DNA of 62,005 bases from a virus, in the IMG/VR virus record IMGVR_UViG_3300037247_002096, positions 1 to 62,005 of that record; one strand, 5' to 3'. Below are positions 34,342 through 58,638 of this stretch, piece by piece. Both the position numbers and the translations under genes were made by a program. The notes under the pieces were generated by a model that saw only the letters and a list, made by a program, of their open reading frames with translations, made no database searches and was not told the origin of the DNA. The first letter of the stretch is position 1; every line of letters begins with the position of its first letter.

Positions 34342-35403
34342 ATGGAAATAAACAATTTAAAAATCTTCGTTCGCGGTGCTTACGATCTACAAAAACTTCG
34401 TATCCAAATGGGGAATCGTATCGTTGCCAATTTCAAGGCGCGATTGGGCCAAAAGGCCGGTGAAAGTGAAGAAACCCTGGATGAAAAGGGTAAAGAACTG
34501 CTATCGCAAATTAGGAAAAGTTATAAAAAAATAACCGACAATGTAAAAACCTTCCCCCGACAATCAACATTTACTGGTGATCAGGTTATCAGCACGTTTA
34601 CCGAGCTTTGTTTGGTCGCACAATATGTCAGCCTTGAGACCCAGGAAGACAGCCACTTTAAAAGGCTGGGTTCCATGTTGAACGAGTATCCCATCTTTAC
34701 CGAATATCTCAAAGACGTTAGGGGCATCGGCCCAGCGATGGCTGGTGTGTTGATATCCGAAATCGATATCGAAAAATGCCAGTATCCATCCAGCTTGTGG
34801 AAATATTGCGGGCTTGACGTGGTTGCTGAATGGACATTGGACAGAGTTGTTGCTCTTGTTAATCCTGACAAAATTCCGCACAAGTTCCCTGAGAAAAGAC
34901 CTTTTTATATATTTAAAGACCAGTTTAACTTTTTGCACTTTGAGAAGGAAGGTGAGCCAAATGAATTGCATATTTTTTATAAAGAAAAAACCCTGAAAGC
35001 TAAATTAATTTATGTTTGGACAGGTGACCTTAAAGGACGTTCCAAGAAAAAGGAGCATTTGGTGCAAACTGAGTATATCGATAAAAACAATGAAGTGGCT
35101 TTTAAAATGGGCATCACTTTTAACCCATGGCTAAAATCCAAATTGATTGGTGTGCTGGCATCCTCATTTTTACGGGCGGGGGATAACATCTATAGCCAAG
35201 CCTATCGAGACTATAAAAACAGGATCGAGAATCACCCCGATCACCTTGAAAAGACAAAAGGACATCGCCATAACATGGCAATGCGCTACATGATTAAAAT
35301 ATTTTTAATCGACTTTCATAGAACTTGGCGAGCTATTGAGGAGTTGCCCGTTACCACCGTTTATTCTAAAGGCAAACTCGGAATTGTTCATAAAGCAGGA
35401 TAG
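34342..35403 (+). CDS. Tas-like RNA-guided protein (Nop/IS110-type, no nuclease)
   Basis: A 353-residue protein; ATG 34342 is used as AGGAG lies 9 bases upstream. Residues 120-160 (FTEYLKDVRGIGPAMAGVLI, then SSLWKYCGLDVV) are the helix-hairpin-helix core of IS110/IS116 transposases. Residues 258-335 are a paired-helix segment with RAG, A-R-Y and GHRHNMAMRYMIKIFLI, as in the IS110 C-terminus and Nop-like domains. Residues 165-250 are a beta-rich insert. There is no DEDD or RuvC domain, no HNH and no serine-recombinase-like nucleophile region of IS110. Directly after the TAG stop comes a 36-bp-period dual-spacer array, so it fits the nuclease-less TasA branch of TIGR-Tas systems. It should bind 36-nt guide RNAs. 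Confidence 0.87.
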   Translation: MEINNLKIFVRGAYDLQKLRIQMGNRIVANFKARLGQKAGESEETLDEKGKELLSQIRKSYKKITDNVKTFPRQSTFTGDQVISTFTELCLVAQYVSLETQEDSHFKRLGSMLNEYPIFTEYLKDVRGIGPAMAGVLISEIDIEKCQYPSSLWKYCGLDVVAEWTLDRVVALVNPDKIPHKFPEKRPFYIFKDQFNFLHFEKEGEPNELHIFYKEKTLKAKLIYVWTGDLKGRSKKKEHLVQTEYIDKNNEVAFKMGITFNPWLKSKLIGVLASSFLRAGDNIYSQAYRDYKNRIENHPDHLEKTKGHRHNMAMRYMIKIFLIDFHRTWRAIEELPVTTVYSKGKLGIVHKAG

Positions 35404-36342
35404 TCATGCCATATAAGAAACCCAATAGATAAGAGCGAGTCATAAAACTGAAGAAACCCAATATATGAAAGCGAGTCATTACATTATAGAAAACCATAAA
35501 AAGGAAGCGGGTCATTGAAGCAAAGAAACCCAAATCAATATAGCGAGTCAAAAAAATCCAGAAACCCAATGAAACGAAGCGAGTCATTAAACTTAAGAAA
35601 ACCAGAATGAAGAAGCGAGTCAACTATGGCTAGAAAACCAAAAATCTAAAGCGTGTCAAAAAGTAAAAGAAAACCAAATGAATGAAGCGTGTCAAAAAGA
35701 TTTAGAAAACCATATGAACGAAGCGTGTCAAGTAAAGAGAGAAAACCAATAATTCCAAGCGTGTCAATACTACATAGAAAACCAGTATCAATAAGCGTGT
35801 CATAGGAGAATAGTAATCCACTTTCCTAAAGCGGGCCAATAGTTTTTAGAAAACCAATAAAAGAAAGCGAGTCAAATTGAGGTAGAAACCCATTAGAGAA
35901 AAGCGTGTCATAAAAGCTTAGGAAACCAAAAAACTAAAGCGTGTCACTTCCAACGAGTAAACCTAATGAAGGAAGCGCGTCAATAAGAAAAAGGAAACCA
36001 ATATCGTTTAGCGAGTCAATGTATAGAAGAAAACCATAATGAGGAAGCGTGTCATAGTGAGCAAGAAAACCAAGAGGAAAAAGCGTGTCAATAGGCATGA
36101 GAAACCCACAGAAAATAAGCGAGCCAGTGAAAGCGAGAAAACCAAGCTAAAAGAGCGAGTCACAACCACTAAGAAACCCAACAATATGGAGCGTGTCAAT
36201 GAAGTTTAGAAACCCAATGTCTAGAAGCGAGTCACTACATCAAAGAAAACCATTATAAGGAAGCGAGCCACAGCAATAAAGAAAACCATAATAGTTAAGC
36301 GAGTCAAAAGACAAAAGAAAACCACAGAAGAAAAGCGATTAT
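35398..36342 (+). repeat. TIGR array 1, 26 units
   Basis: Exact 36-bp period with no indel. Loop box AGAAA(A/C)CCA first at 35416 and last at 36316; edge box AGCG(A/T)GTCA; each is separated by a 9-base spacer. The first edge (35398-35406, ending AGTCA) is degenerate and contains the tas stop codon; the last edge (36334-36342, AGCGATTAT) is also degenerate. 52 spacers, nearly all different. Examples before/after the loop box: tgccatata/atagataag, taaaactga/atatatgaa, ttacattat/taaaaagga, aaagacaaa/cagaagaaa. Drifted loops: AGTAATCCA (35812), AGTAAACCT (35956). It is probably transcribed with tas and cut into 36-nt RNAs. Confidence 0.93.
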
Positions 36343-43231: not shown

Positions 43232-45325
43232 ATGAAAGATGATTTTTTAAAAAAAAATATGACAAAAATGATGTTTTCGGTAGTAGCAATATTGGCTTTT
43301 AGCATTATTGGACTGATCATTTACATTTCAACCACCAGCTTTAACAACACGGTGGCATCCAGCAAACTCAACGCCCTGTCTATCATCGATCAATTCAAAA
43401 CTTTACGTGCCTATTACGTTAAAAGCGTTATCAAAAAGGTCAAAGCCAATGACACCGGCTTGCAAATATCTATCGACCACAAAAACATGGACGATGCTAT
43501 CCCCCTACCTGCAACCATGATTCATGATATGAGCGAATTATTGAGCGGAAAAGGTAAAGACAATATAAAATTGAAACTTTACAGTGATTTCCCGTTTCCA
43601 AATCGTAAAGGTAGAAAATTGGATAGTTTTGGAAAGTCAGCTTTAGCGTTCTTTCAAGCCACTCCGGATCAACCTTTTGTAAAAGAAGAAACATTGAATG
43701 GCCAGTCCGTTGTTCGCGTTGCCGTTGCCGATAAAATGATCGCCAAGGCTTGTGTGAATTGCCACAATACCCGCTACGACACCCCAAAAAATGATTGGAA
43801 ACTGGGCGATGTGCGTGGTGTGCTCGAAGTCATTTCCCCCATCGATACTCAATTAGCAGCAAACAGCGCGATGTTAACCAAAGTAATTAGTATCACCGTT
43901 TTCTGTTTGATCCTGGTGGCTTTGATGGTCGCAGGCGTCTTGATGCAAATGAAGGCAATGAGAAGATCACAAACTGAAAACGCAAAAATAATCTCGATAA
44001 TTGAAAACGCTCCTATCAATATCCTTTTTGCGGATACAGACTTTGATTTGCAATATATGAATAAAGCTTCATTTAAAACTTTAAAGACTTTGGAAAAGAG
44101 TCTTCCTGACAGGGTGGAAAACCTTGTTGGGCAATCGATTGATATTTTCCACAAAAATCCGGCTGTGCAACGAAGAATTCTTTCCGACCCAAAAAATCTC
44201 CCACATCAAGCTAATATCCAACTGGGTCCAGATACTCTGGATCTTTTGTCAAACGCGATTTACGATAATGATAAAAACCATATGGGGTCTATGGTCACAT
44301 GGGCGGTGATCACTGATAAACTTGCGCGGGAACAAAAAACAAAGGAGATGCAAGAACGTGAACAAATGCAGTCTAAAGAGTTGCAAGAAAACGTGGATAG
44401 CATTCTTGATGTTGTGAGTGCCGCCGCCATGGGGGATCTCACCCAAGAGATCACCGTGCAGGGTGATGATGCCATTGGGCAAATGGGCAAAGGGCTGACA
44501 CAATTTTTCTTGGATCTGCGTAAAAATATTTCAGAGATTGCGGATACAGCCCAGACCCTCAGCAGTTCATCAGAGGAATTGAGCACAATCAGTCAAACCA
44601 TGGCGGGCAATGCGGAACAAACTTCCGCTCAGGCAAATGTCGTGTCAACCGCGTCCGAGGAAATCGCTCGCAATGTTGAAACAGTAGCAACAGGTGCGGA
44701 AGAAATGGGCGCAAGCATTAAAGAAATTGCCCGCAATGCCAATGAAGCGGCAAAGGTGGCCAAATCCGCTGTGGTCATCGCCGAAAAGACCAACGAAACA
44801 GTGGGCAAACTGGGTGTCAGTAGTACAGAAATAGGGCAAGTCATAAAAGTCATCACCTCGATTGCAGAGCAAACCAACTTGCTGGCTTTGAACGCAACCA
44901 TCGAGGCGGCTCGTGCTGGAGAAGCCGGAAAGGGCTTTGCAGTTGTCGCCAACGAAGTCAAAGAACTGGCGAACCAAACAGCCAAGGCAACTGAGGAAAT
45001 CAGCCAAAAAATCGAGGCCATTCAATCGGATACTCAAAGCTCCGTTGATGCCATTGCCGAGATCACCATGGTCATTAACCAGATCAACGATATTTCTAAC
45101 ACCATCGCCAGCGCGGTTGAGGAACAGACCGCAACCACGGCGGAAATTGGGCGCAACGTGGAACAAACCGCCAAAGGGAGTAATGAAATATCAGAAAATA
45201 TTTCCGGAGTGGCTAAGGCGGCTCAGGAAACCTCTACAGGTGTCGGGCAAACTCAGCAAGCGGCAACAGACCTGTCAAAAATGGCCGCTGATCTGCAAAA
45301 ACTTGTCAGCCGATTCACTTATTGA
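43232..45325 (+). CDS. Methyl-accepting chemotaxis receptor with heme-type sensor
   Basis: A full-length 697-residue receptor. TM1 at 13-34, a periplasmic DUF3365/Tll0287-type domain with CVNCH at 174-178 (c-type heme motif), TM2 at 217-240, a PAS-like region (255-370), then the long cytoplasmic helices with the conserved tip [20 protein letters not shown] near 548-567. The end lacks a CheR pentapeptide. It would sense redox or a gas and signal through host CheA. A complete receptor in a phage is rare; it probably steers motility of lysogens. ATG follows ACCGGGGAG. Confidence 0.93.
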
Positions 45326-45347
45326 TTATGATGAAAGGGGATGGGGG

Positions 45348-46298
45348 ATGGGATTAGAAAAACTTGGTAGGATTGAGAAAATCGATATTAGGGATCAATG
45401 GAAACATGAAGCCAATGATTTTACGCCTTGGTTAGCTGAAGATAGAAATATTCAAATTCTTTCCGAAGCAATTGGCATTGATATTGAGGTTGAAGGAATT
45501 GAAGTCCCGATTGGATCATTTATTGCTGATATTATTGGGAAAGATGAAGAAGGTAGAAAAATTATTATAGAAAATCAATTATCGAAAACCGACCACAAGC
45601 ATTTGGGCCAAATCATCACCTATGCTTCTGGCATCGATGCAAAAATTCAAATATGGATATGTAAAGAAGTCACAGAGGAACATCGGCGGGCAATAGATTG
45701 GTTGAATGAATTTACAACCTCCGAGGTAATATTCTTCGCTTGTGAAATCGAGTTGTGGAAAATTAATGAATCTTTATGCGCCCCTATGTTTAAAGTGGTT
45801 TCAAGTCCAAATGATTGGTCCAAAACAATTAAAACTAACCCAAGTGAAATAAAATCACCTCTTAAAAAAATTCGGTTAGAATTCTGGAATGGCTTTAAAG
45901 AATATATGACAGAAAAAGGAACGGATTTAAGATTGAGAACTCCAGGCTCTAACCATTGGTATACTGTATCTCTAGGCACATCCCATTTTAGTTTAGCCTG
46001 GACTATCAATACAAAAGAAAACCGATTGGGATGTGAACTTTATATGGGCGGGAAACCCGCAAAGAAATATTTTTCTAAGCTCTGTGAAATGAAAGAAGAA
46101 ATCGAAAACGAAATTGGACCCCTAATTTGGATGGAATTGCCTGATAAAACAGCTTGCAGGATCATTGTTTACCATGATGGTGATATTAAAAACAAATCTC
46201 AATGGCCAGATCTCTATAATTGGCTCGGTGAAAAAGCGGAGGCGTTTCATTTGGCGTTCTCTAAAAGGGCAAAAAAAATATCAACTGAGCAGGAATAA
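45348..46298 (+). CDS. DUF4268 nuclease-like protein
   Basis: A 316-residue protein; ATG 45348 with GGGG upstream is chosen over a longer open frame that lies under the receptor gene. Residues 28-90 (WLAEDRNIQILSEAIGI, FIADIIGKDEEGR, IIIENQLSKTDHKHLGQ) match the N-terminal D-ExQ restriction-like fold of DUF4268/NucS relatives; the C-terminus is the DUF4268 domain. Family members are linked to defence and restriction. It stands directly before the methyltransferase. Confidence 0.85.
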   Translation: MGLEKLGRIEKIDIRDQWKHEANDFTPWLAEDRNIQILSEAIGIDIEVEGIEVPIGSFIADIIGKDEEGRKIIIENQLSKTDHKHLGQIITYASGIDAKIQIWICKEVTEEHRRAIDWLNEFTTSEVIFFACEIELWKINESLCAPMFKVVSSPNDWSKTIKTNPSEIKSPLKKIRLEFWNGFKEYMTEKGTDLRLRTPGSNHWYTVSLGTSHFSLAWTINTKENRLGCELYMGGKPAKKYFSKLCEMKEEIENEIGPLIWMELPDKTACRIIVYHDGDIKNKSQWPDLYNWLGEKAEAFHLAFSKRAKKISTEQE

Positions 46299-46324
46299 AA
46301 GGCAGTTATGGAAAGGATTGAATA

Positions 46325-47281
46325 ATGCCTAGTTATAATATTGGGAGTTTATTTGCAGGGATAGGTGGTATTGACCGTGGTTTTCAGGATGCGGGTTTTA
46401 AAATAAAATGGTCCAATGAAATTGACAAAAAAGCTTGTAAAACCTTTTCAGTCAATTTCAGTCACAAAATGTATTCCGGCGATATAAAAAATTTAATTGT
46501 AGCGAATTTGTCAAAAGTTGATGTTTTGACAGCTGGTTTTCCTTGTCAACCTTTTTCCATAGCTGGTTATAGAAAAGGGTTGATGGATGAGCGGGGAGGA
46601 GCTATTTTTTTTCAAATGATGCGGATAATAAAAGGATTAAAACCGAGAGTTATTTTCCTTGAAAATGTTAAAAATTTAACTACTCATGATAAGGGAAGAA
46701 CGTTAAAGATTATAATGGAAGCTCTTATAGAGGCGGGATATCAATCCCCGAAGTATGCGATTTTAAACACTTGCGAATATTCTCAGTTGCCACAAAATCG
46801 GGAACGGCTTTTTATTGTTGGTTTTAAATATAAAAAAGATCAAGTCCGCTTTAATTTTCCAGAAAAAGAAAAGAAACAAAAAACCATTAAACAATTATTG
46901 GAAACAAAAATTCCAGAAAAATTTTATTATGATCAATTAGGATCAAAAATTTTTCCTACGTTGCAGAAAGCCATTACAAGAGTGGATACATGTTATCAAT
47001 GGCGAAGGAAATATGTCCGGGAAAATAAAAGCAATATGTGCCCAACTCTAACAGCTAATATGGGGACCGGTGGCCATAATGTTCCTTTGATATTGGATAA
47101 GGGCCGAATAAGAAAACTGACCCCAAAAGAATGTGCCAAGTTTCAAGGCTTTCCAAAAGATTTTATTCTTCCAGAAAATATGACAAATTCGGACCTTTAT
47201 AAACAGATTGGCAATAGTGTCAGCGTCCCAGTTGTAACTCGAATCGCACATAATATTCTGGAGGCCATTAGTAATTCATGA
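46325..47281 (+). CDS. DNA cytosine-5 methyltransferase
   Basis: A 318-residue enzyme with motif I LFAGIGGIDRGF (residues 9-20), motif IV GFPCQPFS (catalytic C74), ENVKN (motif VI), QNRERLFIVGF (motif VIII) and a C-terminal QIGNSV (motif X). It methylates C5 of cytosine at an unknown site. It overlaps the next gene by ATGA, the layout of a type II restriction-modification pair. Confidence 0.95.
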   Translation: MPSYNIGSLFAGIGGIDRGFQDAGFKIKWSNEIDKKACKTFSVNFSHKMYSGDIKNLIVANLSKVDVLTAGFPCQPFSIAGYRKGLMDERGGAIFFQMMRIIKGLKPRVIFLENVKNLTTHDKGRTLKIIMEALIEAGYQSPKYAILNTCEYSQLPQNRERLFIVGFKYKKDQVRFNFPEKEKKQKTIKQLLETKIPEKFYYDQLGSKIFPTLQKAITRVDTCYQWRRKYVRENKSNMCPTLTANMGTGGHNVPLILDKGRIRKLTPKECAKFQGFPKDFILPENMTNSDLYKQIGNSVSVPVVTRIAHNILEAISNS

Positions 47282-47754
47282 ATAAAAAATTCACTGAAAA
47301 AAAATGGGAAATTAACCTTACTGGAATTTCTGAAGGAATTTTCAAACCGCAACATGGAACTGCAAATGAAATGATCGCTGTTGGAAGAACAATCAAAGCA
47401 GGATTCCCTACCTCCAGGTCAGATATTACAAATGCCACCTATGATGCAATCGTTGAAGTTGATGGGGGTAAAAAATTATTAAGAATCCAAATCAAAGGAA
47501 CAACCACCGGGACTGTGTCTCTTATTGGTGGACATAGAAGTGGCAAACAAATAGATAAAAATGCACCAAAAAGAATATATAAATATTCAGAAAAAAATTG
47601 CGATATTTTTATTGGAATAAATTCTCATAATGGTGATTGCTACATAATCCCAGCATCACACCTTAAAAAATGGGGTGGTACTAAGGCATTATCAAAATTA
47701 CAAGATTATAAGGAAAAATGGCAACATTTGGTCGATGTTGCAAAGAAAGCTTAA
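47278..47754 (+). CDS. PD-(D/E)XK endonuclease, likely restriction partner
   Basis: A 158-residue protein with TYDAIVEVDGGKKLLRIQIK near residues 57-79, that is D, then a Q-I-K strand as in the PDDEXK_5 group of group-I-intron endonucleases and related restriction enzymes. It is translationally coupled to the C5 methyltransferase, so a restriction role is inferred. The catalytic E is replaced by Q, as in some of this group. Confidence 0.75.
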   Translation: MNKKFTEKKWEINLTGISEGIFKPQHGTANEMIAVGRTIKAGFPTSRSDITNATYDAIVEVDGGKKLLRIQIKGTTTGTVSLIGGHRSGKQIDKNAPKRIYKYSEKNCDIFIGINSHNGDCYIIPASHLKKWGGTKALSKLQDYKEKWQHLVDVAKKA

Positions 47755-47762
47755 AACATAAT

Positions 47763-47790
47763 GCCAAAAATGAGTAAATGAACGGGGATG
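47763..47790 (+). repeat. Cassette leader repeat, copy 1
   Basis: GCCAAAAATGAGTAAATGAA followed by CGGGGATG. Same sequence type as 48531, 49516, 49857 and 50136. It contains a three-codon frame (ATG AGT AAA TGA) and ends in the ribosome site of the next cargo gene. Confidence 0.85.
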
Positions 47791-47794
47791 TGTG

Positions 47795-48514
47795 ATGGTG
47801 ATAGTACCGTGGGAATATTACAATGTTTTGTGCGATAAAAGATTAGAAATATTTTGTTGCATTTTTTGTGGTGATAAAACAGAATCACGAGATCATGTCA
47901 TATCAAAAGTTTTTTTAGATAAACCTTATCCAAACGAATTACCAACAATTGGTGCGTGTATAGATTGCAATCGAGGATTTTCTATGGATGAAGAATACCT
48001 TGCTTGTTTGATTGAATGTGTTTTGAGCGGAACTACCAACTATGAAAATATTAAACGAGAAAAAGTAAGACACATTTTAAAACGCAAACCCTCTTTAGTA
48101 ATAAGATTAAAAAAAAGTAAAAAATCAACTTATGGGCAAATATGTTTTATCCCGGAAAATGATAGAGTCAAAAATATTATTATCAAAATTGCAAAGGCTC
48201 TAATAGGATTTGAGCTTACAAAACTGGTATTTCAAAAACCGTTTAAAGTAAGTTACTTACCGATTCCCAATATGACGCAAAAAGAAAGATTAAGTTTTGA
48301 AAGATTACCAGATTGTCTTTTGTGGCCAGAGATTGGTACAAGAACATTTCAAAGGATGGTTTTGGGAAATTTTGGAATGGGGAAAAACGCAATATGGTGC
48401 GATGTTCAACCAGGAAGGTTTCGTTTCTCAGCTATTCATTTACAAACAGAAATAATTATTCGCTTTGTCATCTCAGAATATCTGGCTTGTGAGGTTGTTT
48501 GGGATGATGATTGA
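47795..48514 (+). CDS. HNH-type endonuclease
   Basis: A 239-residue protein, ATG 47795 with CGGGG upstream. CIFCGDKTESRDHVISK (residues 21-37) and CIDCNRGFS (residues ~54-62) give the C-x2-C ... DHV ... C-x2-CN layout of a zinc-bound HNH nuclease. The long C-terminal region is beta-rich and unassigned. Directly follows the restriction-modification pair, so defence is likely. Confidence 0.8.
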   Translation: MVIVPWEYYNVLCDKRLEIFCCIFCGDKTESRDHVISKVFLDKPYPNELPTIGACIDCNRGFSMDEEYLACLIECVLSGTTNYENIKREKVRHILKRKPSLVIRLKKSKKSTYGQICFIPENDRVKNIIIKIAKALIGFELTKLVFQKPFKVSYLPIPNMTQKERLSFERLPDCLLWPEIGTRTFQRMVLGNFGMGKNAIWCDVQPGRFRFSAIHLQTEIIIRFVISEYLACEVVWDDD

Positions 48515-52968: not shown

Positions 52969-53319
52969 ATGTGTGATCCTCAAAAAGATCTAAACCAAAT
53001 TCAAAAAGAATCTCCATTTCTATTTTTCAAACTGTTACCAATTTTCTTTATCGTCGTTGTGGTTTTGTCCCTAATCGGGTTTACAATGTATAACCTGGGT
53101 ATGCTCGGTCAAACTGAAATTGAACACAAAATAGTGGAAGACTCTACCCAACCCACTACGGCTATTCAAATGACTATCGCAAATGAAGAAGAACTCATCA
53201 CGAAACTGGAAGGGAGATTGATGAACCCAAAATTGGACCAAAACATCCGGTTCAACCTCAATACGCAAATCATCTCGGCTCAACTACGAATCAACAGTGC
53301 AAAACGATTAAAAAAATGA
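52969..53319 (+). CDS. Single-pass membrane protein
   Basis: A 116-residue protein; ATG 52969 follows the previous stop by 1 base. Transmembrane helix at about 24-46 (LLPIFFIVVVVLSLIGFTMY); the C-terminal domain is helical and polar. ATGA overlap with the next gene. Function unknown. Confidence 0.6.
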   Translation: MCDPQKDLNQIQKESPFLFFKLLPIFFIVVVVLSLIGFTMYNLGMLGQTEIEHKIVEDSTQPTTAIQMTIANEEELITKLEGRLMNPKLDQNIRFNLNTQIISAQLRINSAKRLKK

Positions 53320-53543
53320 AGCAAATTATATTTTTTGCCCTTATTTTGTTAATATTCTTGATCAGTCATAAAAGCTGTCAAACCAAAAGTCCTAAAAAGG
53401 GGGACATCGAATTTGCTGAAAGGACGTGCGGCCCTTCGGGGATGCTATGGAACCCTACAGACCCACGCACCGTGACAGACCAATTCGCCTCGTGGCGTTC
53501 ACGGCCACGTCTTTTAATTTTGGGGCCTTCCGGGAAAATGTAA
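53316..53543 (+). CDS. Short signal/lipoprotein-like frame, end invaded by RNA element
   Basis: A 75-codon frame coupled by ATGA. Residues 1-16 are hydrophobic, followed by SHKSCQ, a weak lipobox. From residue ~36 the frame simply reads the structured RNA copy B, so the natural end was probably replaced by the element. Possibly a truncated gene. Confidence 0.45.
   Translation: MKQIIFFALILLIFLISHKSCQTKSPKKGDIEFAERTCGPSGMLWNPTDPRTVTDQFASWRSRPRLLILGPSGKM
53419..53515 (+). ncRNA. Structured RNA element, copy B
   Basis: AAAGGACGTG pairs with CACGTCTTTT (10 bp, one G-U). Inner CCC-UUC-GGG hairpin, CCGTGA/TCACGG stem and CGCC-TCGT-GGCG hairpin. The outer stem differs from copies A and C at several paired positions while pairing is kept. 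It lies 65 bp before TIGR array 2. Confidence 0.78.
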
Positions 53544-53579: not shown

Positions 53580-54937
53580 ATCGTGTCATTTTAATCTAGA
53601 AACCCAAAAAGGAAAAGCGAGTCATTCACGCAAAGAAAACCACAATCACAAAGCGAGTCAAAGTACCGAGAAACCCAAAAAAATATAGCGAGTCAAACGT
53701 CCGCAGAAAACCAGACCCAAAGAGCGAGTCAAATCATTTTAGAAAACCAATGGATTCAAGCGAGTCATGTTATGACAGAAAACCAATAAGCCAAAGCGTG
53801 TCATTATCTGGAAGAAACCCAAAGCATGTAAGCGTGTCAGTACTGATAAGAAAACCAGTGATAATAAGCGTGTCAAGTTGACTTAGAAACCCAATATAAT
53901 AAAGCGAGTCAATAAGTTCTAGAAAACCACATAAAGTAAGCGTGTCAAACGTCCGCAGAAAACCAGACCCAAATAGCGAGTCATGTTATGACAGAAAACC
54001 AATAAGCCAAAGCGTGTCAAAATCACAAAGAAACCCAATGCCATATAGCGAGTCATGATATATGAGAAACCCATAGTGATAAAGCGCGTCATAAGAATTG
54101 AGAAACCCAGAGCCAAAGAGCGAGTCAATATTTCCAAGAAACCCAATATAATAAAGCGAGTCAAATCTATTGAGGAAACCAATAAATCTAAGCGTGTCAA
54201 TACCAACTAGAAAACCAAAATCACAAAGCGAGTCATTACATTATAGAAACCCAGAAAAACGAAGCGTGTCATAATTATCAAGAAACCCAAAAAGCTGGAG
54301 CGAGTCAAATTTGACTAGAAACCCATAATAAGTAAGCGTGTCAAAATCACAAAGAAACCCAATGCCATATAGCGAGTCATACCATTACAGAAACCCAATG
54401 AAGCAGAGCGCGTCATTTCATCGAAGAAACCCATAGTGGTAAAGCGAGTCAATATTACGAAGAAACCCAAAGAGGAAAAGCGAGTCAAATTTGACTAGAA
54501 ACCCATAATAAGTAAGCGTGTCAACTCAACCAAGAAACCCAGATTAATAAAGCGAGTCATTCAACAGTAGAAAACCACAGAAGAAAAGCGTGTCATTTTA
54601 ATTGAGAAATCCAGAAAAAAGAAGCGAGTCAGTATAGCGAAGAAACCCATAGTGGTAAAGCGAGTCAATATTACGAAGAAACCCAAAATAGGGAAGCGAG
54701 TCATACCAGCCTAGGAAACCAAAGTATGTAAGCGAGTCATGTTGAGAAAGAAAACCACATAAAGTAAGCGTGTCAAACGTCCGAAGTAAACCAATGGAAA
54801 AGAGCGAGTCATTTCATCGAAGAAACCCATAGTGGTAAAGCGAGTCATTTGAAACTAGAAACCCAGGGTAAAGTAGCGCGTCATTAAAATAAAGAAAACC
54901 AAGAGAAAAAAGCGATTCAAATAATCTTAGAAAACCA
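53580..54937 (+). repeat. TIGR array 2, 37 full units plus remnant
   Basis: 38 loop boxes AGAAA(A/C)CCA from 53598 to 54929 alternate with AGCG(A/T)GTCA edges at 36-bp spacing; only one unit (loop at 53669) is 35 bp. First edge ATCGTGTCA (53580) and the terminal edge AGCGATTCA (54911) are degenerate. Repeated units keep spacer-loop-spacer together: aacgtccgc/gacccaaa(g,t), tgttatgac/ataagccaa, aaatcacaa/atgccatat, aatttgact/taataagta and tttcatcga/tagtggtaa each occur twice. ttacattat and cagaagaaa are also in array 1. No tas gene is next to it, so it probably uses the one at 34342. Confidence 0.93.
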
Positions 54938-55032
54938 TATAAAGGAGACTGCCATGACCTAGATATATAAACCTCCCTGATAAATTCTCCCACACTCAGC
55001 CCTTCAATTAATTTTAATACCGGAGAATTAAA
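54938..55032. other. Gap after TIGR array 2
   Basis: TATAAAGGAGACTGCCATGA after the last loop box resembles a ribosome site and start, but the frame (ATG ACC TAG) ends at once. No terminator is clear. Confidence 0.4.
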
Positions 55033-55422
55033 ATGAAATCGATTTATTGTTGGAACAAAAGAATGGCATTAAAAAGGAAGCTGTCCATCTTGGCATATAT
55101 GATCGTCCGTCTCAAAGACGATAGAAAAACTGTGCGGCCAAAAAAGTTTCCCGAATTTATCCGACCTTGCGGGGTGTGGTTGGACACTACCCAATCAGAA
55201 TTTCGTTATCATCACATTGCCGCGTCTATGATGCGTGGTAAAACTATTGAAGAAATTGAAAGATTGCCAAAAGATCCAAATACCAAGGATTCTAGGATTC
55301 GACCTAATATGCGAATGGTCAACACAATTATGGAGGGTTGTTTGGATGAAAATGTATGTGCTGGTATTGAACAGCCTAACGAGGTCTCAGCAAGCGGTGC
55401 AGGGCGGCCATGCCCTGGCTGA
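55033..55422 (+). CDS. Hypothetical protein
   Basis: A 129-residue basic protein with GGAGAATTAAA before ATG. The middle (FRYHHIAASMMRGKTIEEIE and DSRIRPNMRMVN) looks like a compact helical DNA-related domain, but no family is recognised. It overlaps the Pth2-like start by 77 bp. Confidence 0.55.
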   Translation: MKSIYCWNKRMALKRKLSILAYMIVRLKDDRKTVRPKKFPEFIRPCGVWLDTTQSEFRYHHIAASMMRGKTIEEIERLPKDPNTKDSRIRPNMRMVNTIMEGCLDENVCAGIEQPNEVSASGAGRPCPG

Positions 55423-55645: not shown

Positions 55646-55657
55646 ACTTTTTCACAA

Positions 55658-55727
55658 GCCTATGTAGCAGATTGGAATGCAACTGGTTCTAAACCAGGTT
55701 ATGCGGGTTCGATCCCCGCCATAGGCT
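55658..55727 (+). tRNA. tRNA with anticodon CUA (amber suppressor)
   Basis: Perfect 7-bp acceptor GCCTATG/CATAGGC, D-stem GCA/TGC, anticodon stem CTGG/CCAG with loop TTCTAAA (U33, anticodon CTA, A37), T-stem GCGGG/CCCGC with TTCGATC. Discriminator T, no encoded CCA, then T6 terminator. The anticodon reads UAG. The D-arm is minimal and 27-43 is an A-G mismatch. The charging amino acid cannot be fixed from the sequence. Confidence 0.92.
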
Positions 55728-55770
55728 TTTTTGGAGTACAATATCTGTACTATAAAGAAAGGACACATCC

Positions 55771-58215: not shown

Positions 58216-58638
58216 ATGCTGACCAAATTAAACGCCCATAAGAATCAAAAGGGTTTCACCCTGATCGAGTTGTTGATCGTCATCGCTATCATTGGTATTT
58301 TGGCCGCAGTTGCCATTCCTCAGTTTGCCCAGTATCGCGCTCGTGCAAATGCTGCACAAATCACTTCAGATTTGCATAATGTATATTTGTCTTGTAAAGC
58401 TTTCTGGGGAACAGGACAGAATAATTCAACAAGCTTATGCACCATTGATGATGCTGGTATCTTGGGTCCACTGTATGGCTTTGTAGCAACCAATTTAATA
58501 ACTTTAGAAATTACTACAGGGACTGAACGTGGCTTTATAGCCACCGGTACTCATCCAAATGTTTTAGATGATACTGATACTGAAGTTTTATTCACAGTAA
58601 GCGAAAATGGTAACGTTACTAATCCGGGCGGTTTCTAA
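58216..58638 (+). CDS. pilA: Type IV pilin (PilA-like)
   Basis: A 140-residue major-pilin-type protein. Prepilin leader of 12 residues ends KG before FTLIELLIVIAIIGILAAVA, with E at +5, then the standard pilin helix. A cysteine pair (residues ~59 and 76) may form the D-loop. AAAGGAGACAATTC ribosome site and a sigma-54 promoter upstream; a hairpin downstream. It is a self-contained host-type transcription unit between late phage genes. It could be built into host pili, changing adhesion or phage receptor properties. Confidence 0.93.
   Translation: MLTKLNAHKNQKGFTLIELLIVIAIIGILAAVAIPQFAQYRARANAAQITSDLHNVYLSCKAFWGTGQNNSTSLCTIDDAGILGPLYGFVATNLITLEITTGTERGFIATGTHPNVLDDTDTEVLFTVSENGNVTNPGGF

Follow-up and report, generated by a model that had tools for sequence, protein, structure and literature searches.

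The window analysed here is the whole of the phage record IMGVR_UViG_3300037247_002096 (62,005 bases), whose 127-bp terminal direct repeat indicates that the genome is probably complete. Two arrays of alternating short repeats lie on its plus strand, one beside a tas gene and the other, which is longer, in a distant region. The features needed for the description below are the following.

34342-35403, plus strand: tasA, encoding a 353-aa Nop-domain protein without a predicted nuclease domain (sequence matches and AlphaFold model)
35398-36342, plus strand: tas-adjacent TIGR array (array 1), 26 units and a truncated last edge, with boxes as in array 2
53316-53543, plus strand: 75-aa open reading frame ending 36 bp 5' of array 2, with which it may be co-transcribed
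53580-54937, plus strand: distal TIGR array (array 2), 37 complete 36-nt units and a remnant (edge/loop parsing)
53580-53615, plus strand: unit 1 of array 2, with the degenerate first edge ATCGTGTCA (array parsing)
54422-54687, plus strand: an instance of re-paired half-units, with loop-TAGTGGTAA-edge-ATATTACGA-loop standing at 54422 and again at 54638 (50 nt identical) between different outer partners
54911-54953, plus strand: 3' end of array 2, a degenerate edge AGCGATTCA, the last loop and then an RBS-like AAAGGAG kept in a sister phage
55033-55422, plus strand: 129-aa open reading frame just 3' of array 2; its orthologue in the sister phage anchors the synteny of the distal array

Each unit of array 2 is formed by a 9-nt edge (AGCGNGTCA), spacer A, a 9-nt loop (AGAAAMCCA) and spacer B, both spacers being 9 nt long. 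The parsing gives 38 edge/loop units, 37 of them flanked by edges at both ends and the last without a following edge; the coordinates and the count of 37 full units plus a remnant given in an earlier note on this DNA are therefore right. The period is 36 nt in all units but one of 35 nt. That unit (53652-53686) has a spacer A of 8 nt, and array 1 of the sister phage likewise contains a few 35-nt units with 8-nt spacers. A search of the genome with AGCGNGTCA-N9-AGAAANCCA, allowing up to two mismatches, located 62 sites against a chance expectation of 0.06 from shuffles, all of them on the plus strand and within the blocks 35434-36324 and 53580-54937, and this pattern search of both blocks agrees with the previous claim that the two arrays use the same boxes. 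With a strict edge/loop pattern there were 45 matches, every one inside the two arrays, and the reversed control gave 0. Both terminal edges of array 2, ATCGTGTCA and AGCGATTCA, are degenerate. TIGR arrays usually begin at the 5' end with a degenerate or truncated edge (PMC12045711), and in TIGR-Tas a truncated edge at the 3' end is followed by an intrinsic terminator. No strong RNA structure was found in array 2 (z 0.11).

Array 2 is a real dual-repeat TIGR array, its alternating repeats and spacers of 9/9/9/9 nt lying within the TIGR-Tas definition of 8-12-nt repeats and spacers of about 9 nt. It differs from a CRISPR array in having two 9-nt repeats instead of one direct repeat of 25-36 nt and in the lack of a convincing Cas protein among the phage proteins searched, where a P63C-domain protein gave only a weak partial match to Cas12d (E 0.0005). 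The location of the array next to tas, a further feature of TIGR-Tas, is seen in array 1 and not in array 2. As array 1 adjoins tas, the whole system is TIGR-Tas and array 2 is an outlying array of the same system. Array 1 and the distal array are 17.2 kb apart, and the stop codon of the only tas in the genome is 18.2 kb from the distal array, which thus indeed has no adjacent tas, as had been noted. A profile search (E <= 10) found a single tas per genome in both the window phage and its sister.

The Tas protein matches TasR (9mty, E 1.8e-10) and TasH (21kl) in a PDB sequence search. An AlphaFold model built from 53 relatives (mean pLDDT 75.5) aligns with residues 111-317 of TasR (Z 19.0) and residues 66-298 of TasH (Z 18.9), with weaker fold matches to IS621 and ISCro4 (Z about 13) and to Nop5/Nop56 (Z about 7); a single-sequence fold was uninformative (pLDDT 35) and was set aside. 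The model begins at about residue 111 of TasR and about residue 66 of TasH, and no match to an HNH or RuvC domain was found. Since nothing in it corresponds to the nuclease parts of TasR and TasH, the phage effector is, as judged from its sequence and the predicted model, a nuclease-less TasA. An insertion of about 65 residues after residue ~165 (window 34831-35037), modelled with low confidence, is common to the sister phage and absent from four other aligned Tas proteins. The stop codon of tas lies inside the degenerate first edge of array 1, GGATAGTCA, and is TAG in both phages.

The sister phage, IMGVR_UViG_3300026543_000167 (58,420 bp), encodes a Tas 82% identical to that of the window and carries one array beside tas and a second about 14 kb away. 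The segment 54497-55732, which takes in the last part of array 2 and the genes that follow, is 72.7% identical in alignment to a stretch of the sister made up of the end of its distal array and the sequence beyond; the two distal arrays are therefore orthologous, and the orphan array is older than the split of the two phages. Searching with the 129-aa downstream protein revealed no further phages. A survey of some two dozen further Tas-bearing records of at least 25 kb showed arrays at most about 2 kb from tas and no second array more than 5 kb from it; most of these records are incomplete, three were read in part and arrays of fewer than about four units could escape. Stretches of 36-nt periodicity far from tas in other Tas phages turned out to be coding repeats and were rejected. 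The distal orphan array is thus present in 2 of about 26 Tas-bearing records of at least 25 kb, in keeping with the earlier note, which had called it unusual.

Concerning the expression of array 2, a terminator-like hairpin is located at 53491-53509, about 70 bp ahead of it, and no sigma-70-like promoter site was detected close upstream on the plus strand. On the 3' side there is no terminator-like site directly after the array, which is followed by the conserved RBS-like sequence. Array 2 may be expressed by read-through or by regulated antitermination, and the two arrays could, as the earlier note proposed, be expressed at different times. In the sister about 5 nt separate the end of a tRNA-Arg gene (TCT; L111:8693-8767, minus strand) from the start of the distal array, and the two may therefore be transcribed together.

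Right 3' of array 2 there is a tiny open reading frame (54954-54980: ATG ACC TAG ATA TAT AAA CCT CCC TGA) with the RBS-like AAAGGAG and an in-frame TAG; in the sister the TAG, the AAA, two Pro codons (with synonymous changes) and the TGA are kept. A tRNA gene with an amber (CUA) anticodon lies at 55657-55728, 0.7 kb 3' of array 2, with an orthologue in the sister (L111:7383-7454, minus strand), and is possibly a phage amber suppressor. The genes around array 2 encode a C5 methyltransferase, a PD-(D/E)XK nuclease, a PDC-S11/DUF4268 protein, an HTH protein and a P63C protein. They resemble an accessory and defence region, which would be consistent with competition against other elements. Within the window, positions 44913-48511 hold a defence-like cluster of a DUF4268/PDC-S11 protein, a C5 cytosine methyltransferase and a PD-(D/E)XK nuclease, and positions 43232-45325 and 58216-58638 encode a chemotaxis receptor with a Tll0287-like sensor domain and a pilin-like protein with an N-methylation motif, cargo that may be able to alter the lysogen.

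The earlier note had proposed that one Tas probably serves both arrays, and several observations lend indirect support to this proposal. Besides the single tas in each phage and the identical boxes, position 5 of the edge is mixed (A/T/C/G) in each of the four arrays that the two phages carry, whereas most other lineages of Tas keep it almost constant (as a rule A, in one lineage T and in another G) and a few vary as well; the mixed position in all four arrays supports service in trans by one TasA. Furthermore, an identical 42-nt stretch comprising one whole unit is found in both arrays of the sister (unit 10 of S1 and unit 13 of S2). As each genome has a single tas, service in trans is the simplest reading, and on these sequence grounds we infer that one TasA serves both arrays, a conclusion that is well supported, if indirectly.

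The repeat boxes of array 2 are the best kept among the four arrays of both phages; within the window perfect boxes are found in 33/37 units of array 2 vs 18/26 of array 1 (Fisher p 0.06). Array 2 contains four exact duplicate unit pairs, and its spacers are shared exactly far more often than expected (A-A, 6 vs 0.02; B-B, 8 vs 0.12), with no exact sharing inside array 1. When both arrays of the window are taken together, eight pairs of units have one spacer in common and the other different. The repeated blocks are often out of phase with the unit, as in the example at 54422 and 54638, and therefore the junctions lie in the repeats and the spacer halves have been re-paired. Such half-sharing is also seen across 44 non-redundant array-bearing records (782 units), where 38 pairs in 17 records compare with 0.6 expected. 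Arrays 1 and 2 of the window have the spacer A TTACATTAT in common (p about 0.015). Hardly any spacers are common to the orthologous arrays of the two phages, although their genomes align at roughly 65-90% nucleotide identity, which indicates a fast turnover of guides. Selection for the same half-site, and not recombination, may account for part of the re-pairing. We advance only tentatively, at somewhat short of even odds, the fuller reading in which array 2 is a dedicated, actively evolving guide library whose spacer halves recombine at the 9-nt repeats into new two-part specificities without adaptation machinery, and which serves TasA in trans, such reassortment being widespread in phage TIGR arrays and the missing mechanism by which they grow.

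Other explanations of array 2 have to be weighed against this evidence. That it is the disused relic of a second TIGR locus that lost its tas might be read from the 18 kb without a tas around it and from the terminator-like hairpin upstream; yet its boxes are the cleanest of the four arrays and bear the signature of the resident Tas lineage, the 36-nt spacing is interrupted in a single unit, and a distal array stands at the same site in a sister of roughly 65-90% nucleotide identity, all of which makes a relic unlikely. The whole unit common to both sister arrays, the shared TTACATTAT and the boxes common to arrays 1 and 2 speak for array 2 as a recent overflow copy of array 1, moved by inter-array recombination and without a role of its own. 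However, its orthologous place in both phages and a set of guides almost wholly different from that of array 1 indicate that array 2 is old and evolves separately, and we consider a recent copy quite unlikely. Protein-coding tandem repeats, or a repeat class other than a guide array, are hardly credible: minus strand frames do stay open for up to 95 aa across the repeats, and coding repeats of the same period exist in other phages, but array 2 alternates two conserved 9-mers with two hypervariable ones, its 35-nt unit would shift any reading frame, and the same boxes recur beside tas and across dozens of Tas loci.

Regulation of the phage's own genes by array 2 RNAs through TasA, acting on lysogeny or on competing promoters, would fit the accessory surroundings of the array, which include an HTH gene, and binding of a nuclease-less TasA to its own genome would not be lethal to it. 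Against this, all the guides of the four arrays match both phage genomes no better than re-paired control guides, in either of two target geometries and with gaps of 0-2 (both half-site orders were tested because their order on one strand is ambiguous in PMC12045711), and we regard self-regulation as very unlikely. Three exact 18-nt scans for viral targets gave matches at chance level only. A triple viral match was rejected as a target, since it represents a single 97-100% identical lineage of an unrelated virus. No targets of a related array were found in its MAG (G040; two guides tested), and the sharing of guides with arrays of other phages is at about chance (50 near pairs vs 25-43 in controls). 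Spacer B is A-rich (53%); this was dropped as a target signature, a weaker purine bias being general in other arrays.

Taken as a whole, the data are best explained by a two-locus TIGR-TasA system with guides acting in trans, a DNA-binding TasA and re-pairing within the arrays, a reading to which we give a probability of about two in three. In this system the nuclease-less TasA (34342-35403) would bind tigRNAs from the adjacent array and from 53580-54937, the latter probably transcribed by read-through from upstream plus strand genes. The array 2 RNA would be cut from mid-edge to mid-edge into 36-nt tigRNAs bound by a TasA dimer, as known for relatives. In TasR and TasH, spacers A and B pair with opposite strands of an 18-bp site (PMC12045711), and by analogy each tigRNA would steer TasA to such a site, which it would bind without cutting. 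By bending and blocking the DNA, TasA would most likely act against competing mobile elements or the host, silencing their genes or their replication; both the target side and the biological effect of the guides are drawn wholly from relatives. Array 2 would diversify without recognisable adaptation machinery by duplication of whole units, of which the duplicates are observed, and by recombination at the 9-nt repeats, which would pair spacer A with the spacer B of another unit to create new 18-nt specificities.

The system itself is a known TIGR-Tas. It resembles the TasA-type dual-repeat systems (Faure et al. 2025, PMC12045711; FpTIGR) in its Nop-only effector and alternating short repeats, its 9-nt spacers and 36-nt unit, its degenerate first edge and an array beside tas, and differs from them in that a further array, the longer of the two, stands 18 kb away from tas and has no effector of its own. 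More than one array block per TasA is also found in the TIGR stem-loop arrays, where a Peromyscus gut contig has three subarrays (PMC12045711), although those blocks are ~450 nt apart and composed of stem-loop units, and the phage has two dual-repeat arrays 17 kb apart. TasA has a Nop fold related to that of the IS110/IS621 bridge-RNA recombinases and the archaeal box C/D snoRNPs; unlike the former it has no DEDD recombinase part, unlike the latter it has no known fibrillarin or L7Ae partner, and in contrast to both its guides stand in arrays. CRISPR-Cas systems may have several or orphan arrays that are served in trans, one effector set using distant arrays, and their spacers turn over faster than the genome, as do those of the phage TIGR arrays. 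Unlike CRISPR-Cas, no Cas1/Cas2-like adaptation was found in the phage, and diversification resembles internal duplication and re-pairing of half-guides.

No description of the two-locus layout or of half-guide re-pairing was found in the literature searched. In the published TIGR-Tas work arrays were sought within 5 kb of candidate genes in either direction, and searching its text located no mention of orphan, distal or second arrays (PMC12045711). The conserved distal array indicates that Tas effectors may use guides located elsewhere in the genome, and therefore surveys centred on tas can miss guides. Where the spacers come from and how the arrays expand are named as open questions of TIGR-Tas in PMC12045711. 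Duplicated and re-paired half-spacers offer a concrete and testable way in which arrays could grow and change their specificity in the absence of Cas1/Cas2-like adaptation; as each sister phage has two arrays, the two phages form a natural pair for such tests.
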